64,000 nt of DNA from Scilla litardierei (lineage: Eukaryota > Streptophyta > Magnoliopsida > Asparagales > Asparagaceae), in assembly GCA_030789695.1 (NCBI GenBank), contig CM061136.1, positions 129,556,648 to 129,620,647 on the forward strand. Direction: 5' to 3'. Shown here piece by piece: positions 30,361 to 61,084 of this stretch (the first letter of the stretch is position 1; the number at the start of each line of letters is the position of its first letter). The notes under the pieces are model-generated. The model worked only from the letters and a program-made list of their open reading frames with translations, made no database searches and was not told the DNA's origin. Both the position numbers and the translations under genes were made by a program.

Positions 30361-30659
30361 GAGTGTTGTTACCACATAAATTTATGAATACACCACACTA
30401 CTTGGTTCATCATACCTGTATCTTTAACATCAGATGTTCGGATTTGGAGATCCGAACGGCTCTAATACAATACATGTGTAAATCCGAACACAATACATAT
30501 TTTATTATATTGTTCAGCTTTGCAAGTCCAAACGGAAGAATAAAAGTATTAGAGCCGTTCGGATCTCCAAATCCGAACATCTGATGTTAAAAATATAGGT
30601 GTGGTGAAGCAAGAGGTGTGATGTATTCATAAATTTCTGTGGTGCGAATAACAACACTC
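30361..30659. mobile_element. Mutator-type MITE (long inverted repeat, 9-bp TSD)
   Basis: The ends GAGTGTTGTTACCACA and, inverted, GAGTGTTGTTATTCGC begin inverted arms of over 100 bp, including aacatcagatgttcgg and its complement. Flanking 9-mers aagctagag (30352-30360) and aagttagag (30660-30668) differ at one base, as expected for an old Mutator-like duplication. It lies just upstream of the presumed first exon of the HAT3.1-like gene. Confidence 0.85.
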
Positions 30660-34741: not shown

Positions 34742-35810
34742 GGCTAACGACACGGGAGTCGTTCAGTGACGAAGGGTGTCCCCTCGACTTACGGCTGACG
34801 ACACGCCTAGGATAGTCGATCAGTGGCAAAGGGGTAGCTCCTTTAACTTACGGCTGACGACACGTTAGGAGAGTCGTTCAGTGGCGAAGGGGTGGCCCCT
34901 TCGACTTACGGCTAACGACGCATTAGGAGAGTCGTTCAATGGCGAAGGGGTGGCCCCTTCGACTTACGGCTGACGACACATCTAGGATAATCATTCAGTG
35001 GTGAAGGGGTGGCCTCTTCAACTTACAGTTGACGACACGTCAGGAGGGTCGTTCAGTGGTGAAGGGGTGGCCCCTTCGACCTACGGCTGACAACACGTTA
35101 GGAGAGTCGTTCAGTGGCAAAGGGGTGTCCCTTCGACTTATGGCTGATGACACGTTAGGAGAGTCATTCAGTGGCGAATGGGTGGCCCCTTCAAATTACG
35201 GCTGACAACACGTTAGGAGAGTCATTCAGTGGCAAAGGGGTGGCCCCTTCAACTTGCAGCTGAAGACACGTTAGGAGAGTCGTTTAGTGGCGAAGGGATG
35301 GCCCCTTCGACTTGCGGCTGACGACACATCTAGGATAGTCATTCAGTGGCAAAGGGGTGGCCCCTTTGGCTTACGGCTGACGACACGTCTATGATAGTCG
35401 TTCACTGGCGAAGGGGTGGCCCCTTCAGCTTACAGCTGATGACACATCGAGAGAGTCGTTCAGTGGCAAAGGGGTAGCCCCTTCGGCCTACGGCTGACGA
35501 CACGGCTATGATAGTCGTTCAGTGGCGAAGGGGTGGCCCCTTCGGCCTACGGCTGACGACACGTCAGGAGAATCGTTCAGTGGGGAAGGGGTGGCCCCTT
35601 CGACCTACGGCTGACGACACGTTATGAGAGTCGTTCAGTGGCGAAGGGGTGGCCCTTCGACTTATGGTTGACGACACGTGAGGAGAGTTGTTCAGTGGTG
35701 AAGGGGTGGACCTTCAACTTACAGCTGACGATACGTCAGGAGAGTCGTTCAGTGGCGAAGGGGTGGCCCCTTCGACGTACGGTTGACGACACGTTAGTGT
35801 AACTCGCACG
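34742..35810. repeat. 58-59-bp tandem repeat, about 18 copies
   Basis: The consensus unit contains ggctgacgacacgttagga, gagtcgttcagtggc and gaaggggtggccccttcg. Copies differ at a few bases and occasionally by 1 bp in length. Each unit carries a 7-bp inverted repeat, GAAGGGG-tgg-CCCCTTC, so a transcript would form a row of hairpins. It sits inside the Tat-like element between the antisense ORF and gag. Confidence 0.95.
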
Positions 35811-39093: not shown

Positions 39094-39705
39094 CTGCGAC
39101 GCGATCCGAAGCGGATCCGGATGCGATGCGGGTTGCGCGCGATTTTTGGCGAACACGTGGCGAGCTCTGGCGCGATCCCGCTGCGATCGACGGCCACAAT
39201 TTGCCCCGCTCCAGATCTACGGCTGAGATCAATTCGGGTGCGATTACTGTGCGGGTTTGAACCCGTTAAGCCCAATAAACCCGCAATCTTATTATTTAAG
39301 CGTATTCTAGGGTTTTTGGGCGGATAATTGGCGTATTGGAGCACTTAGGAGCCGTATTTTCTTCTGCAAAAATTCTGTAAAATTCCAGAGCCTAGTTTCT
39401 AATTTCCAGAGAGTTTTGAAGACTTTTCAGAGAGAATTGGTGATATTTTCTTCAACTTTAGCTTGTATTTGGGTGTTTTAGCTTGTATTTTGCCTCTAAA
39501 CTTCCGTATTTTGCTATTAAACCTATGAATTCTGATCTGAAAATTGTTTATTTCTGCACCATGAGTAGCTAAATATTTTATGTGCATGGTATGGAGTAAT
39601 TAAGTGATGTGAATCGTATTCGTTGGTTGTATTATTGCGCTTAATCGCTATATTTGCTAAAGTTTTAATCGTCGCTCTTAAATCTACTTTTTCATATTCC
39701 AAAAG

Positions 39706-40198: not shown

Positions 40199-40216
40199 TG
40201 GCGCCGTTGCCGGGGA
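40199..40216 (+). promoter_or_regulatory. Primer-binding site, tRNA-Asp type
   Basis: TGGCGCCGTTGCCGGGGA lies 6 bp after the LTR, the standard Athila-type site. Confidence 0.92.
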
Positions 40217-40331: not shown

Positions 40332-42260
40332 ATGTGGCATAGGACTCCTAGGACACATAGGTTGACTCGACATTTTGATATGGCTAATAATAATATGGAT
40401 GAAAACTTTAGCAACAACAACGAAAATAATGTGCAACCTGGAGTGCCTAGGACTTTAAAAGATTTACTTCGACCCACTAGGACTAGCACTGCTTCATGCT
40501 TTGTTTTACCTAACGATGCAAATTCTTTCAATTTTAAACCTGGGGTGATCCAACTCTTGCCCACCTTTCATGGGTTAGACAAGGAAAATCCATATCTTCA
40601 TATTAAAGGATTTGAGGAGGTTTGCTTGACATGCTTTGATGGGAAAACTAGCGAGGATACGGTATATCTTAAACTGTTCCCATTTTCATTGAAAGACAAA
40701 GCTAAGAATTGGTTGAATGCATTGCCATCACGTTCTATTACTACATGGATTGATTTGCAGGCTGAATTTCTAAAGAAGTTTTTTCCTATTCACAGGACAC
40801 AGGGACTGAAGCGGCAGATTATGAACTTTGCCCAGAAAAGCGAGGAAACATTCTACCAGGCATTTGAAAGGTTTAATGAGTTGCTGCTCGCATGTCCGCA
40901 CAATGGCTTCGATAAAAGCAAGATTATTGGCTTCTTCTACGATGGACTGCAGCCGCAAATGAAGCAATTTGTAGAGATGATGTGCAATGGAGGATTCTTT
41001 GATAAAGAGCCAGACGAAGCTTGGACGTACCTGGAGGAGATAGCAGAAAATGCGCAGACATGGGACACCACTTCAGACTACGAGAGAGGAGGCCATTCTG
41101 CACCATCCCAGCCTACGCGAGGAGTGGCTTATAATTTGAAGCAAGAGGATGCGTTGGAGGCAAAGATGGAGGCCATGATCTCAAACAAGCTTCATGCAAT
41201 GAATTTGAAAGAGGCCAAGGCAGTCGAGATAGAGAAAATTTGCGCACTTTGCGATGTTGGTGGCCACGACACTAGTGCTTATCCTACACTCCCAGCCTTG
41301 AAGAGCATGCTAGGAAATCCTACGGGGGTGAATCAAGTTTCTTCGAACTACCAGAACTTCAATTCCAACAAGGGGTGGCGCAACAATCCAAACTTGAACT
41401 GGGGCCCCAATCAGCAGACTCAGCAGCAGCAGGCTCCCCCTCCGTTCCGACAACCTCAATACAACAACAACAATTATCAAGGTGGGAACCAGAGGAGGGA
41501 CCATGAGCCAGTGCAACAACAGCAGATGCAACCATTTGGCGATGCGCTTCAGCAGCTTATCCAATTGCAACAAGCTCAGATGCAGCAGCAGCAGGCTCAA
41601 TTTCAGGCTCAGCAGACTCAGAATCAGCAGATGAGCGAGAGCTTGGCGAGGCTTACAGCGACATTAGAAAAAGGTAAGCTTCCATCTCAGTCAATTCCAA
41701 ATCCTAATATGGGCTCATCTTCTTCTGCAGGAAATAATATGAAGCCTTGCCAAGCGGTGTCCACTTTGAGGAGTGGAAAAGAGATTCAGAAGCCTGATCC
41801 ACCGAGCAAACAAGCTGAGCAGGAAGAGGAAATTCAGATCCAAGAAGAGGGAATTAAAGAACATGAGGAGGTGCAGGAAGAGAGCACGGGCGTGGGTATG
41901 AGCAAAAGCGTCATTAAAGAGAAGGAGCCCGCAGCATATGTACCTGCAGCACCCTACCCTCATCGGCTACTTCAGAAAAGCAAAGATAAGTATCAAACTG
42001 AGATTCGTGAAATTTTTCAGAAGTGCCAGATCAATATTCCATTGCTTGATGCTATTAATCAAATAACTACCTATGCTAAATTTCTGAAATATTTGTGCAC
42101 TGTTAAGAGAAAGCTAAATGTGAAAAAGAAAGCATTTTTGACTGAACAGGTTAGCTCTATTGTGCAACAAAATACACCACCTAATTTAGAGACCCTGGAT
42201 CACCCACCATCACTTGCACCATTGGCACTAAGAAAATTGGAAATGCTTTATTGGATTTAG
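40332..42260 (+). pseudogene. gag of the Athila-like element (runs to the protease frameshift)
   Basis: 642 codons. The N-terminus is Asn-rich; MANNNMDENFSNNNENNV is a likely start at 40380. The retrotrans_gag-like capsid spans residues about 75-260 (LFPFSLKDKAKNWLNALPSR, FLKKFFPIHRT). A zinc-knuckle-like CALCDVGGHDTSAYP near residue 304 has Tyr where the last Cys is expected. A Gln-rich stretch follows (residues about 350-450), then an acidic KEHEEVQEES part. The frame shifts at about 42,183, a single missing base just before the protease, so codons after that are out of frame. Confidence 0.9.
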
Positions 42261-59243: not shown

Positions 59244-59547
59244 TGTGTATTTGATCACTCCATATTTTACACCTTTTTTTCTGCTTGTTTGCATGCCATT
59301 TCGATCACCCATATCGCGTTTTTCACGATTATTCGACAATATTGCGATGCTATTCACGATTTCTTGTTTTTGTCGTATTTCAGGAGATTTGGAGCGATTT
59401 GGAGTGATTCTGAGATGCACCCACTCCAGAGTGTCACCCGTGACTCTTTTGAGGGGAATTCTGCGATTGGAAAGGAGTGGAATAAGAAAGAACGTCGTAG
59501 GAGCGACGAGGAAGCAAAAATACGAAGATTGGGCATTTTCAGCATGC

Positions 59548-59915
59548 CACTCGGCCGAGTGAAGGAGTCACTCGGTCGAGCATCGACAGCCCGCTCGGCC
59601 GGCCAGATCGGACACGCAACAGATTGAGTATCAGCGTGCACTCGGCCGAGCATTGCCAGCCCACTCGGCCGAGCACGTAGACACCACTCGTCCGAGTGGT
59701 ATCACGACGACGACAAGCAAAAATCCCGAAGTTACTGTAATCCGTCAGTCAGCTGCCGAGTTCCGTCTCGGCCGAGTGGATAAATCCGCCCTCGGCCGAG
59801 TGAAGAAAGACGCTCGCCTGAGTGACTCCCGAGGAGACGACCCCCAAAAGTCCAGACTTACTGGAATCCGTCAGGGTCCGTCACTCAGCCGAGTGACATT
59901 GGTCACTCGTCCGAG
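59548..59915. repeat. Cluster of CTCGGCCGAG palindromes
   Basis: About 11 sites. CACTCGGCCGAGTG at 59,548-59,561 is a 14-bp perfect palindrome. Variants keep CTCG and CGAG arms and change the two central bases (GT, TC) or one arm (CTCAGCCGAG). Two 125-bp sub-blocks share ctg(g/t)aatccgtcag. Confidence 0.88.
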
Positions 59916-60237
59916 TGAGCCGCGCTGCCTGTCACAGTTTTTTGGGCGATTTTGGGGGGTATTTAACCCCAGTTTTTAACCTAGTTTAGAGAGCTTTTTC
60001 TCATACTATTGGCAGCCCTTTTTAGAATACTTTTTAGGAGATTATATTTGGTTCTTTGGAGAGAGATAAAAGTGTTAATTTGTTGGATGCTATTGAATCT
60101 TCATTGGTTTGTCTCTCTTTCTATCAAAAACCTCATTTTTATTGATATATTTTCTATTGCAATGAATTCTATTGTTTTTATTATTGAATTTCTAATGATT
60201 TGCATTATAAATTGTGAGTAGTTTTATCGTCTTAGGG

Positions 60238-60656
60238 CGTAGGGATGAACCCTACGAACCCTATTTCTAATTTGTGATGAATTGGTGAAATTCTTGCTAG
60301 AATTGATTAGGGTTAGTTTGGGATTGATTTAATACGAATAGCTAGGGATTCATACCGATTGGGATTTGCAAGAGATTGGATCCCAACTCGATAGGAAGCC
60401 CTAGAAATTCGAATTGGGTTACAATTGGGTTTCTCTGGAATTGGTTTGCAAGAGATTGGACCGAAACTAGGGTTTTCGATTGCAATTCAATACCAATACC
60501 CGTTTGCAAGAGATTGGATGGGTAGGAACTATCCCAACCTAGGTCGTAGCTCGAGTTTGCACGAGAGTGGGCTCGAGATACGATTGAACGATGATGTTGT
60601 TCTTCACGCTAGCTTGCCTAGGTTAGGGTTTGCAAGAGATTGGACCCTACCCTAGG
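60238..60656 (+). repeat. Array of hairpins with one conserved 14-nt loop
   Basis: Five hairpins have the loop TTGCAAGAGATTGG (one variant TTGCACGAGAGTGG) at 60,366, 60,446, 60,504, 60,557 and 60,630. Stems are respectively TTGGGAT/ATCCCAA, TTGGT/ACCGA, TACCCGT/ATGGGTA, CTCGAGT/GCTCGAG and a 13-bp stem CCTAGGTTAGGGT with one mismatch. G:U pairs occur where bases do not match Watson-Crick. A further hairpin CGTAGGG-ATGAA-CCCTACG precedes them at 60,238-60,256. Confidence 0.85.
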
Positions 60657-61019
60657 TTTGCTATAGACCGGCAATAGCGAGAGAGCGTGGCTTGGTTCTA
60701 CATTTAGTTGCAACTAGTTCACCTGAATTTATAGTCTAGCAATTGTGAAACCTACGAATCACAATGACGAGATACGGTTTGTAGCGGGGATTCCCTATCC
60801 CTAGGCGTTTTATTAATTTGATATATTCTTTATACAACTGAACGACTGTGACCGCTTTATTGCGAATATTTCTCGACTGTTCTTATAGCCAGGTGAATTG
60901 AAGAAGACACCGTCATTTGCCCTCCTCGTGTTCGATACCCGCTCGCCGCTACACCGTGCGCTTGCGGTAAGACTAGCGAGTCTCGTCCCGGGTGTGTATC
61001 CGGGGCGCGATCAAGTTTT

Positions 61020-61036
61020 TGGCGCCGTTGCCGGGG
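61020..61036 (+). promoter_or_regulatory. Primer-binding site, tRNA-Asp type
   Basis: TGGCGCCGTTGCCGGGG, identical to that of the 38,433 Athila over these bases. Confidence 0.92.
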
Positions 61037-61084
61037 ATTTATCTCCGTGTATTTGCGCCATACTAGGTTGTGCTCTTGGGTTAC

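Follow-up and report, generated by a model that had tools for sequence, protein, structure and literature searches.

Packaging stem-loops of the 5' leader are represented in HIV-1 by SL1–SL4. RNA elements that bind proteins commonly take the form of one loop repeated on hairpins with different stems; in the transferrin receptor mRNA a single protein reads five iron-responsive elements, hairpins which share loop and bulge and differ in their stems. Retroviral packaging signals, including those of MLV and the purine loop of MMTV, likewise consist of several leader stem-loops, some with purine-rich tips, and in MLV one tetraloop (GACG) is placed on two stems, SL-C and SL-D (PMC5874298, PMC8096270, in the text searched). 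Satellite tobacco necrosis virus 1 (STNV-1) has five 5' hairpins, PS1–PS5, with a shared AxxA loop, putative packaging signals which act as such in vitro and are dispensable in planta (PMC6475782, text searched). Among retrotransposons, BARE2 of barley has no Gag but retains signals for packaging and dimerisation, and BARE1 packages it (PMC3735527, text searched); the genomic RNA of Ty3 has a structured 5' end and a dimer palindrome, and its cis packaging sequences are described in the searched text as not precisely defined (PMC11381356). No description of hairpin arrays of the kind reported below was found for Athila-like elements in the open-licence PMC literature, nor was a defined packaging signal for a plant Ty3/gypsy element found in the portions of the literature searched.

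The array described here lies in an LTR of the second Athila-like element of the window, that is, of the whole stretch of 64,000 nt of Scilla litardierei DNA that was analysed, G000:C7:129556648-129620647. It differs from the retroviral signals in having five copies of a 16-nt tip, located before the primer binding site (PBS) of a plant Ty3/gypsy element, with putative binding of Gag. STNV-1 is similar in presenting five hairpins at the 5' end of an RNA with a short loop motif on different stems, but its AxxA motif, as given in the text searched, is far looser, and kinship by descent is not expected. BARE1 and BARE2 are comparable as a pair in which a Gag-less element with cis signals is packaged in trans; unlike the present element, they belong to the Copia superfamily, and no hairpin array is described in the text searched. 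Ty3 shares a Ty3/gypsy leader with a structured 5' end, but no repeated tip is mentioned in the searched part of its description. Iron-responsive elements, in contrast, are located in the 3' UTR of a host mRNA and have another loop and another protein.

The initial annotation had noted a 14-nt loop occurring five times, once with two changes, on stems of different sequence that nevertheless match. Indeed, the 14-mer TTGCAAGAGATTGG is found exactly at the tips of hairpins H1, H2, H3 and H5, and the fifth copy, TTGCACGAGAGTGG, with two changes, at the tip of H4 (Table 1). All five flanking stems pair, with 7, 5, 7, 7 and 6 contiguous pairs (G:U allowed), while arms exchanged between hairpins give no more than four; when contiguity is not demanded, native arms are paired at 7 to 11 of 12 positions and swapped arms at 2 to 9 of 12. 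The stem of H5, described earlier as 13 bp with one mismatch, pairs at 12 of 13 positions. The product of the five stem-pairing chances is 2.4e-13, calculated from the window's own frequencies, assuming independence and taking the loop as given. The folding energy of the 351-nt array is −131.1 kcal/mol on the plus strand (z −7.39 against shuffles) and −106.3 kcal/mol on the minus strand (z −5.21).

Table 1. Coordinates of the hairpin arrays and associated features in the window
Feature	Position	Strand	Remarks
Hairpin H1	60346..60400	+	tip 60366-60379
Hairpin H2	60422..60482	+	tip 60446-60459; outcompeted in long-context folding
Hairpin H3	60493..60526	+	tip 60504-60517
Hairpin H4	60542..60585	+	tip 60557-60570, with C6-G11 replacing A6-U11
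Hairpin H5	60610..60663	+	tip 60630-60643; longest stem of the five
LTR carrying the array	59250..61012 (ends approximate)	+	blastn and 5'/3' LTR pairs
TATA-like box TATTTAA	59960..59966	+	406 nt before the first tip
Primer binding site	61020..61037	+	type used with tRNA-Asp by other Athila-lineage elements; direct read
Element 1 hairpin a, loop CAAAA	39700..39704	+	does not fold alone in the energy model
Element 1 hairpin b, loop CACAA	39730..39734	+	
Element 1 hairpin c, loop CAAAA	39754..39758	+	
Element 1 hairpin d, loop CAAAA	39829..39833	+	3 bp; not folded in isolation by the energy model
Element 1 hairpin e, loop CAAAA	39858..39862	+	
Element 1 TATA-like box	39293..39299	+	first loop of the element about 406 nt downstream
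Element 1 primer binding site	40199..40216	+	

No match to Rfam 15 at the gathering score was found in the window; near the array the closest hit, with E 0.34, falls well short of its cut-off and overlaps H1 on the opposite strand. The hairpin model R1, trained on the window's five hairpins among others, so that its E-values for them follow from its construction, recovered in the 64-kb window these five training hairpins and nothing else below E 0.05. Two weak R1 matches on opposite strands, at 30434-30459 (+) and 30555-30580 (−), have E 0.052 each. Below H5, at 60660-60678, is located the sequence GCTATAGACCGGCAATAGC, found with at most two changes in 71 of 72 arrays of the same family (F1); this region is possibly a sixth small hairpin with another tip.

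The start of the LTR was placed by blastn against related copies, which begins at position 59251 in three of them, and its end by the 5'/3' LTR pairs of related elements, which cease matching just before the PBS. The PBS begins about 7 nt past the LTR end and is presumably of the tRNA-Asp type of the Athila lineage, other elements of which use tRNA-Asp as primer (PMC1142308, text searched). Measured to the PBS, the array begins 654 nt and finishes 377 nt upstream, in agreement with the 360–650 bp noted earlier. A TATA-like box is present 361–425 nt upstream of the first tip in 32 of 33 F1 loci, against a background of 0.0006 per nt for the pattern, both the pattern and the search range having been fixed after the first cases were viewed. 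Because the TATA-like box lies upstream at a fixed distance class and the PBS downstream, the array is probably part of the genomic RNA's 5' leader, some 375 nt from the transcript start, which agrees at the sequence level with the leader position suggested by the initial annotation.

The PBS and the gag genes of relatives suggest that the array-bearing element is Athila-like (Ty3/gypsy). The gag products of two F1 loci, L085 and L093, are 36% and 32% identical to that of window element 1, and gag of a third, L109, matches PF03732 at 1.6e-11, while no match to the front part of gag was found in the window's own F1 copy. Nine copies (at least 76% identity) of the palindrome-like CACTCGGCCGAGTG are located in U3, at 59548-59917, upstream of the TATA-like box. 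A further LTR, L080 (G000:C7:129625500-129632500), which has a PBS of its own, is located about 9.5 kb downstream; its internal DNA is 99.3% identical to that of the window element over 1.55 kb, and it also gives no match to the front part of gag. The two may be parts of a tandem arrangement. Elsewhere in the window, at 34756-35797, a tandem array of about 18 copies of a 58-bp unit was found.

When at most one mismatch is allowed, the 3.68-Gb assembly contains 97,113 + 95,881 copies of the 14-mer (about 193,000), compared with 179 + 244 for the reversed 14-mer used as a control; the exact 18-mer of the PBS gives 11,078 + 11,026 matches. In the 31 LTR copies first compared, including that of the window, five hairpins were present in 31 of 31, with tip spacing near 80/58/53/73 and one exception, L064, with 45 between H3 and H4. 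Loci L001–L030 and L060–L079 were picked by the loop. A loop-blind sample was obtained by the exact-PBS search: 90 loci (L081–L170) from the first 100 matches listed, and of the other ten of these matches one is L079, one shares L124 and eight were left out. The F1 array was found in 60 of these 90 loci (33/50 and 27/40), a CAAAA array in seven and a weaker GCGA pair in two; with the detectors used here, 21 loci contained no array of any kind. Searches outside the host assembly gave no relatives: the 16-mer in IMG/VR yielded 29 single matches, judged to be about chance, the double-tip pattern was absent from genome and viral contigs, and gag profile searches of the same contigs found no relative.

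For comparison of the stems, 72 distinct complete arrays, all from one host assembly, were aligned, and nine incomplete or cut arrays were dropped. The 57 proposed pairs are occupied by standard pairs in 98.3% of 4101 cells, a percentage favoured, more than the change-based measures, by the selection of these pairs after 31 copies had been viewed; when the 3' partner is slid by 1–3 columns, 10–55% are paired. At the same five positions, swapped arms are paired at 59% and native arms at 96%. Variants found in at least four copies keep the pair in 18 of 20 cases (7 double Watson–Crick changes, 11 G:U, 1 A:C and 1 other), variants in two or three copies in 13 of 23, and private variants, present in one copy, in 20 of 58 (G:U 12, A:C 15). 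The contrast between the shared and private extremes (Fisher P 1.7e-5, with variants treated as independent) is what selection during the activity of the elements and decay after insertion would give.

As a null model, 150 simulations were used in which the real copies evolved independently along the same tree. The simulated paired cells amounted to 89.6 ± 2.4% (maximum 94.8), compared with 98.3% observed, the fraction of shared variants that keep the pair to 0.57 (maximum 0.81), compared with 0.90, and the double-kept variants to 1.7 (maximum 5), compared with 8. The observed values were reached in 0 of 150 simulations; the selection on RNA structure proposed by the initial annotation is supported by all three measures. 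The covariation test on the copies of this assembly gave a divided answer: within the proposed pairs, the tip pair 6–11 was significant in H4 (E 0.0005) and H5 (E 0.003), while the all-pairs test was not significant alone (best pair 6–11 of H4, E 0.52), because the copies fall into few clades. A set of 29 distinct single hairpins that combined orthologues and paralogues had a covariation score of 0.568 against 0.192 ± 0.019 in shuffles, with 85 double-changed cells against 26, and two of the five measures were weak against shuffles (double-change pairs, 109/500; pair types, 17/500). In the independent-pairs test, changes in the same direction amounted to 8.3, opposite to 0.5 and with the partner unchanged to 11.2, no single pair having enough contrasts. 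Evidence of strand polarity, namely an excess of G:U on the sense strand, is moderate, G:U against A:C giving P 0.10 for the difference, 0.015 for the joint criterion and 0.04 for cells. The five sites are RNA-type hairpins, the stems of which were kept paired in the lineages giving rise to the copies.

The shared motif of the tip was described initially as a 14-nt loop; the motif itself stands, but an open loop is disfavoured, since positions 4–6 and 11–13 can pair (CAA/UUG) around GAGA and pair 6–11 covaries. The two changes in the tip of H4 are one compensatory change of this pair, from A-U to C-G. Accordingly written, the shared 16-nt tip is UUUG-CAM-GAGA-KUG-G-R, comprising a U.G pair, a UG bulge, 3 bp and the GAGA tetraloop. 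The "loop" probably has a structure of its own, with GAGA of the GNRA type capping a stem of 3 bp; as in GNRA tetraloops, GAGA is closed by a base pair, here 6–11. This pair occurs as A-U, C-G and U.G, with both sides changing together, and changed its state on the tree at least four times in H4, where C is the commonest state at position 6 (50/72 copies), and at least five times in H5. Covariation is uninformative on pairs 4–13 and 5–12, because no variant of them is common to at least four copies. The tip is near-invariant among the sampled copies, an invariance overstated by the F1 filter, which requires several near-exact tips; U was found at −1 and at positions 1 and 2 in 360 of 360 hairpins.

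When single hairpins were folded, the outer stem formed in all five and the tip as drawn in four; for H4 alone, the energy model favours another register with a 6-nt loop. In the 314-nt context, the stem of H2 is outcompeted (probability 0.02), and the probability of inner tip pairs is 0.48–0.62 in H1, H3 and H5 and 0.23–0.24 in H4. A search of L080 for a partner complementary to the tip found none, the 3 matches (at most 5 mismatches of 16) comparing with 2.6 expected.

Window element 1 represents a second Athila-like family (F2), a sister of F1, with five hairpins carrying another loop, CAAAA (CACAA in one), at the same distance below the TATA-like box. Gag, RT and INT of this element were identified by Pfam. 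Seven related loci contain 5–7 hairpins of the form C[CAAAA]G, and copies differ in a compensatory manner at the same ordinal hairpin, for example, CTCTC/GAGAG to CTCCC/GGGAG. In each of the eight F2 leaders with an array, the shared-loop score was reached by 0 of 40 shuffles, and the TATA-like box was found at −405 to −427 in four of the four F2 loci looked at. L128 and L129, which cluster with F2 by DNA similarity, have no CAAAA array. The gag of element 1 contains a zinc-knuckle-like segment with one ligand replaced (41211-41303); the full zinc-knuckle pattern is present in relatives of the F2 Gag.

In a further family, F5, the tip CC[GCGA]GG occurs on two hairpins each in L094 and L130, located 523 and 466 nt before the PBS, with the TATA-like box at −418 and −420 in these two of two loci; this tip is weak, the score being reached by 2 of 40 shuffles for each locus. 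The R1 model, applied to 27 of the 30 non-F1 loci, gave a single match (E 0.0042), in antisense orientation in L089 and about 1.1 kb upstream of the PBS. Conserved GAGA hairpins noticed by eye in F3 and F4 gave no covariance-model match there and are not claimed.

The gag genes were surveyed in 30 PBS loci with 1.5 kb below the PBS, 20 of which have the F1 array: nine match gag, nine give no gag match but have another ORF, and two show neither. That gag-less F1 elements carry the array is partly circular, F1 being defined by the array; the F1 array was absent from 2 of 11 loci with the gag-less ORF (L088 and L089) and from 6 of 15 gag-bearing loci. The informative part is not the presence of arrays in the gag-less form but that they are equally well paired: with 30 stem pairs tested per array, 266 of 270 pairs are kept in the gag-less form and 263 of 270 in the gag-bearing one. 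Both main stem types of H3 occur with and without gag. For two gag-less elements, a piecewise search of the entire internal part found no match to gag, RT or INT at E 1e-3; there was one 32-aa match at E 4.4. By analogy with BARE2, the gag-less arrays fit a cis signal for packaging in trans. They may instead have a role in translation, because gag-less elements have an ORF of their own. This ORF, just below the PBS (L083, L082, L105 and others), contains a conserved unit of about 62 aa, present twice in L105, and spans several LTR types, namely, F1, F3 (L088) and F4 (L089). No Pfam match above the cut-off was obtained for the three such ORFs tried, and a 300-aa piece of one had no relative in the protein database.

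The array is most likely a family-specific docking array for Gag and RNA packaging, to which a probability of about 0.45 is assigned. It would present five equal docking sites, the stems merely holding up the tips; the reader of the tips would most likely be the family's own Gag, and the job most likely cooperative recognition of the RNA and its packaging into particles. Gag of the family is the likely reader because each of the two families has a tip of its own in the same location and because well-paired F1 arrays are found in many elements whose gag is not recognisable. A conserved structured element probably lies in the 5' leader, as expected of a packaging signal, the leader position being deduced from TATA-like boxes. 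The shared-loop hairpins of STNV-1, which proved dispensable in planta according to the text searched, call for caution in this respect.

The strongest of the other explanations, though an unlikely one, is that the tips bind not Gag but a host protein controlling export, stability or translation of the leader RNA, for which iron-responsive elements and constitutive transport elements are models. It agrees with the repetition of one loop on several hairpins that is common in protein-binding RNA, and with the need of gag-less elements to express their own ORF; however, two related families in one host have different tips at the same place, whereas recognition by one and the same host protein should keep the tip unchanged. 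Dimerisation by loop contact, one of the roles listed by the initial annotation, is not favoured and is considered improbable. The tips of two genomic RNAs would kiss, or GAGA loops dock into receptors: the tip contains a 6-nt palindrome, TTGCAA, the energy model has the inner tip stem formed only about half the time, and MLV with its two GACG tetraloops (PMC5874298) and Ty3 with its palindromic dimer site (PMC11381356) offer precedents in the text searched. However, half of the palindrome lies within the inner stem backed by the covariation of 6–11, the variant TTGCAC, with the C that is commonest in H4, is not palindromic, and CAAAA, the F2 loop, is not self-complementary.

Quasi-palindrome correction by template switching, an established mechanism at the DNA level, can produce double changes in one event and would match the arms without selection. 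It is very improbable here: pairing is lost in 38 of 58 private variants, so no continuing correction of inserted copies takes place, G:U states persist among shared variants (10 one-sided G:U against 1 A:C), and the conservation of the tip is left unexplained. Just as improbable is a link to silencing in which the hairpins serve as Dicer-type substrates or as siRNA decoys, for which the long stems of H1, H2, H4 and H5 and the very high copy number would speak, since a near-fixed tip on free stems is the reverse of microRNA precursors and Rfam gave no match at the gathering score.

The docking of Gag on the array can tentatively be extended to a more general proposal, in which Athila-like families mark their genomic RNA by a repeated family-specific tip, a "password" that Gag would read cooperatively. 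The mark would be a single short apical module, repeated about five times on stems that are free to drift and placed at a constant distance from where the RNA starts; a family changing its password would part its RNA from the Gag of other families, and gag-less elements would live by keeping that of their helper. A repeated tip that can be found by its pattern, with about 193,000 near-exact copies, would offer direct access to the way in which these elements select their RNA, to the spread of gag-less relatives and to the separation of families sharing a nucleus. If the proposal is true, packaging specificity in plant retrotransposons would be readable from sequence.
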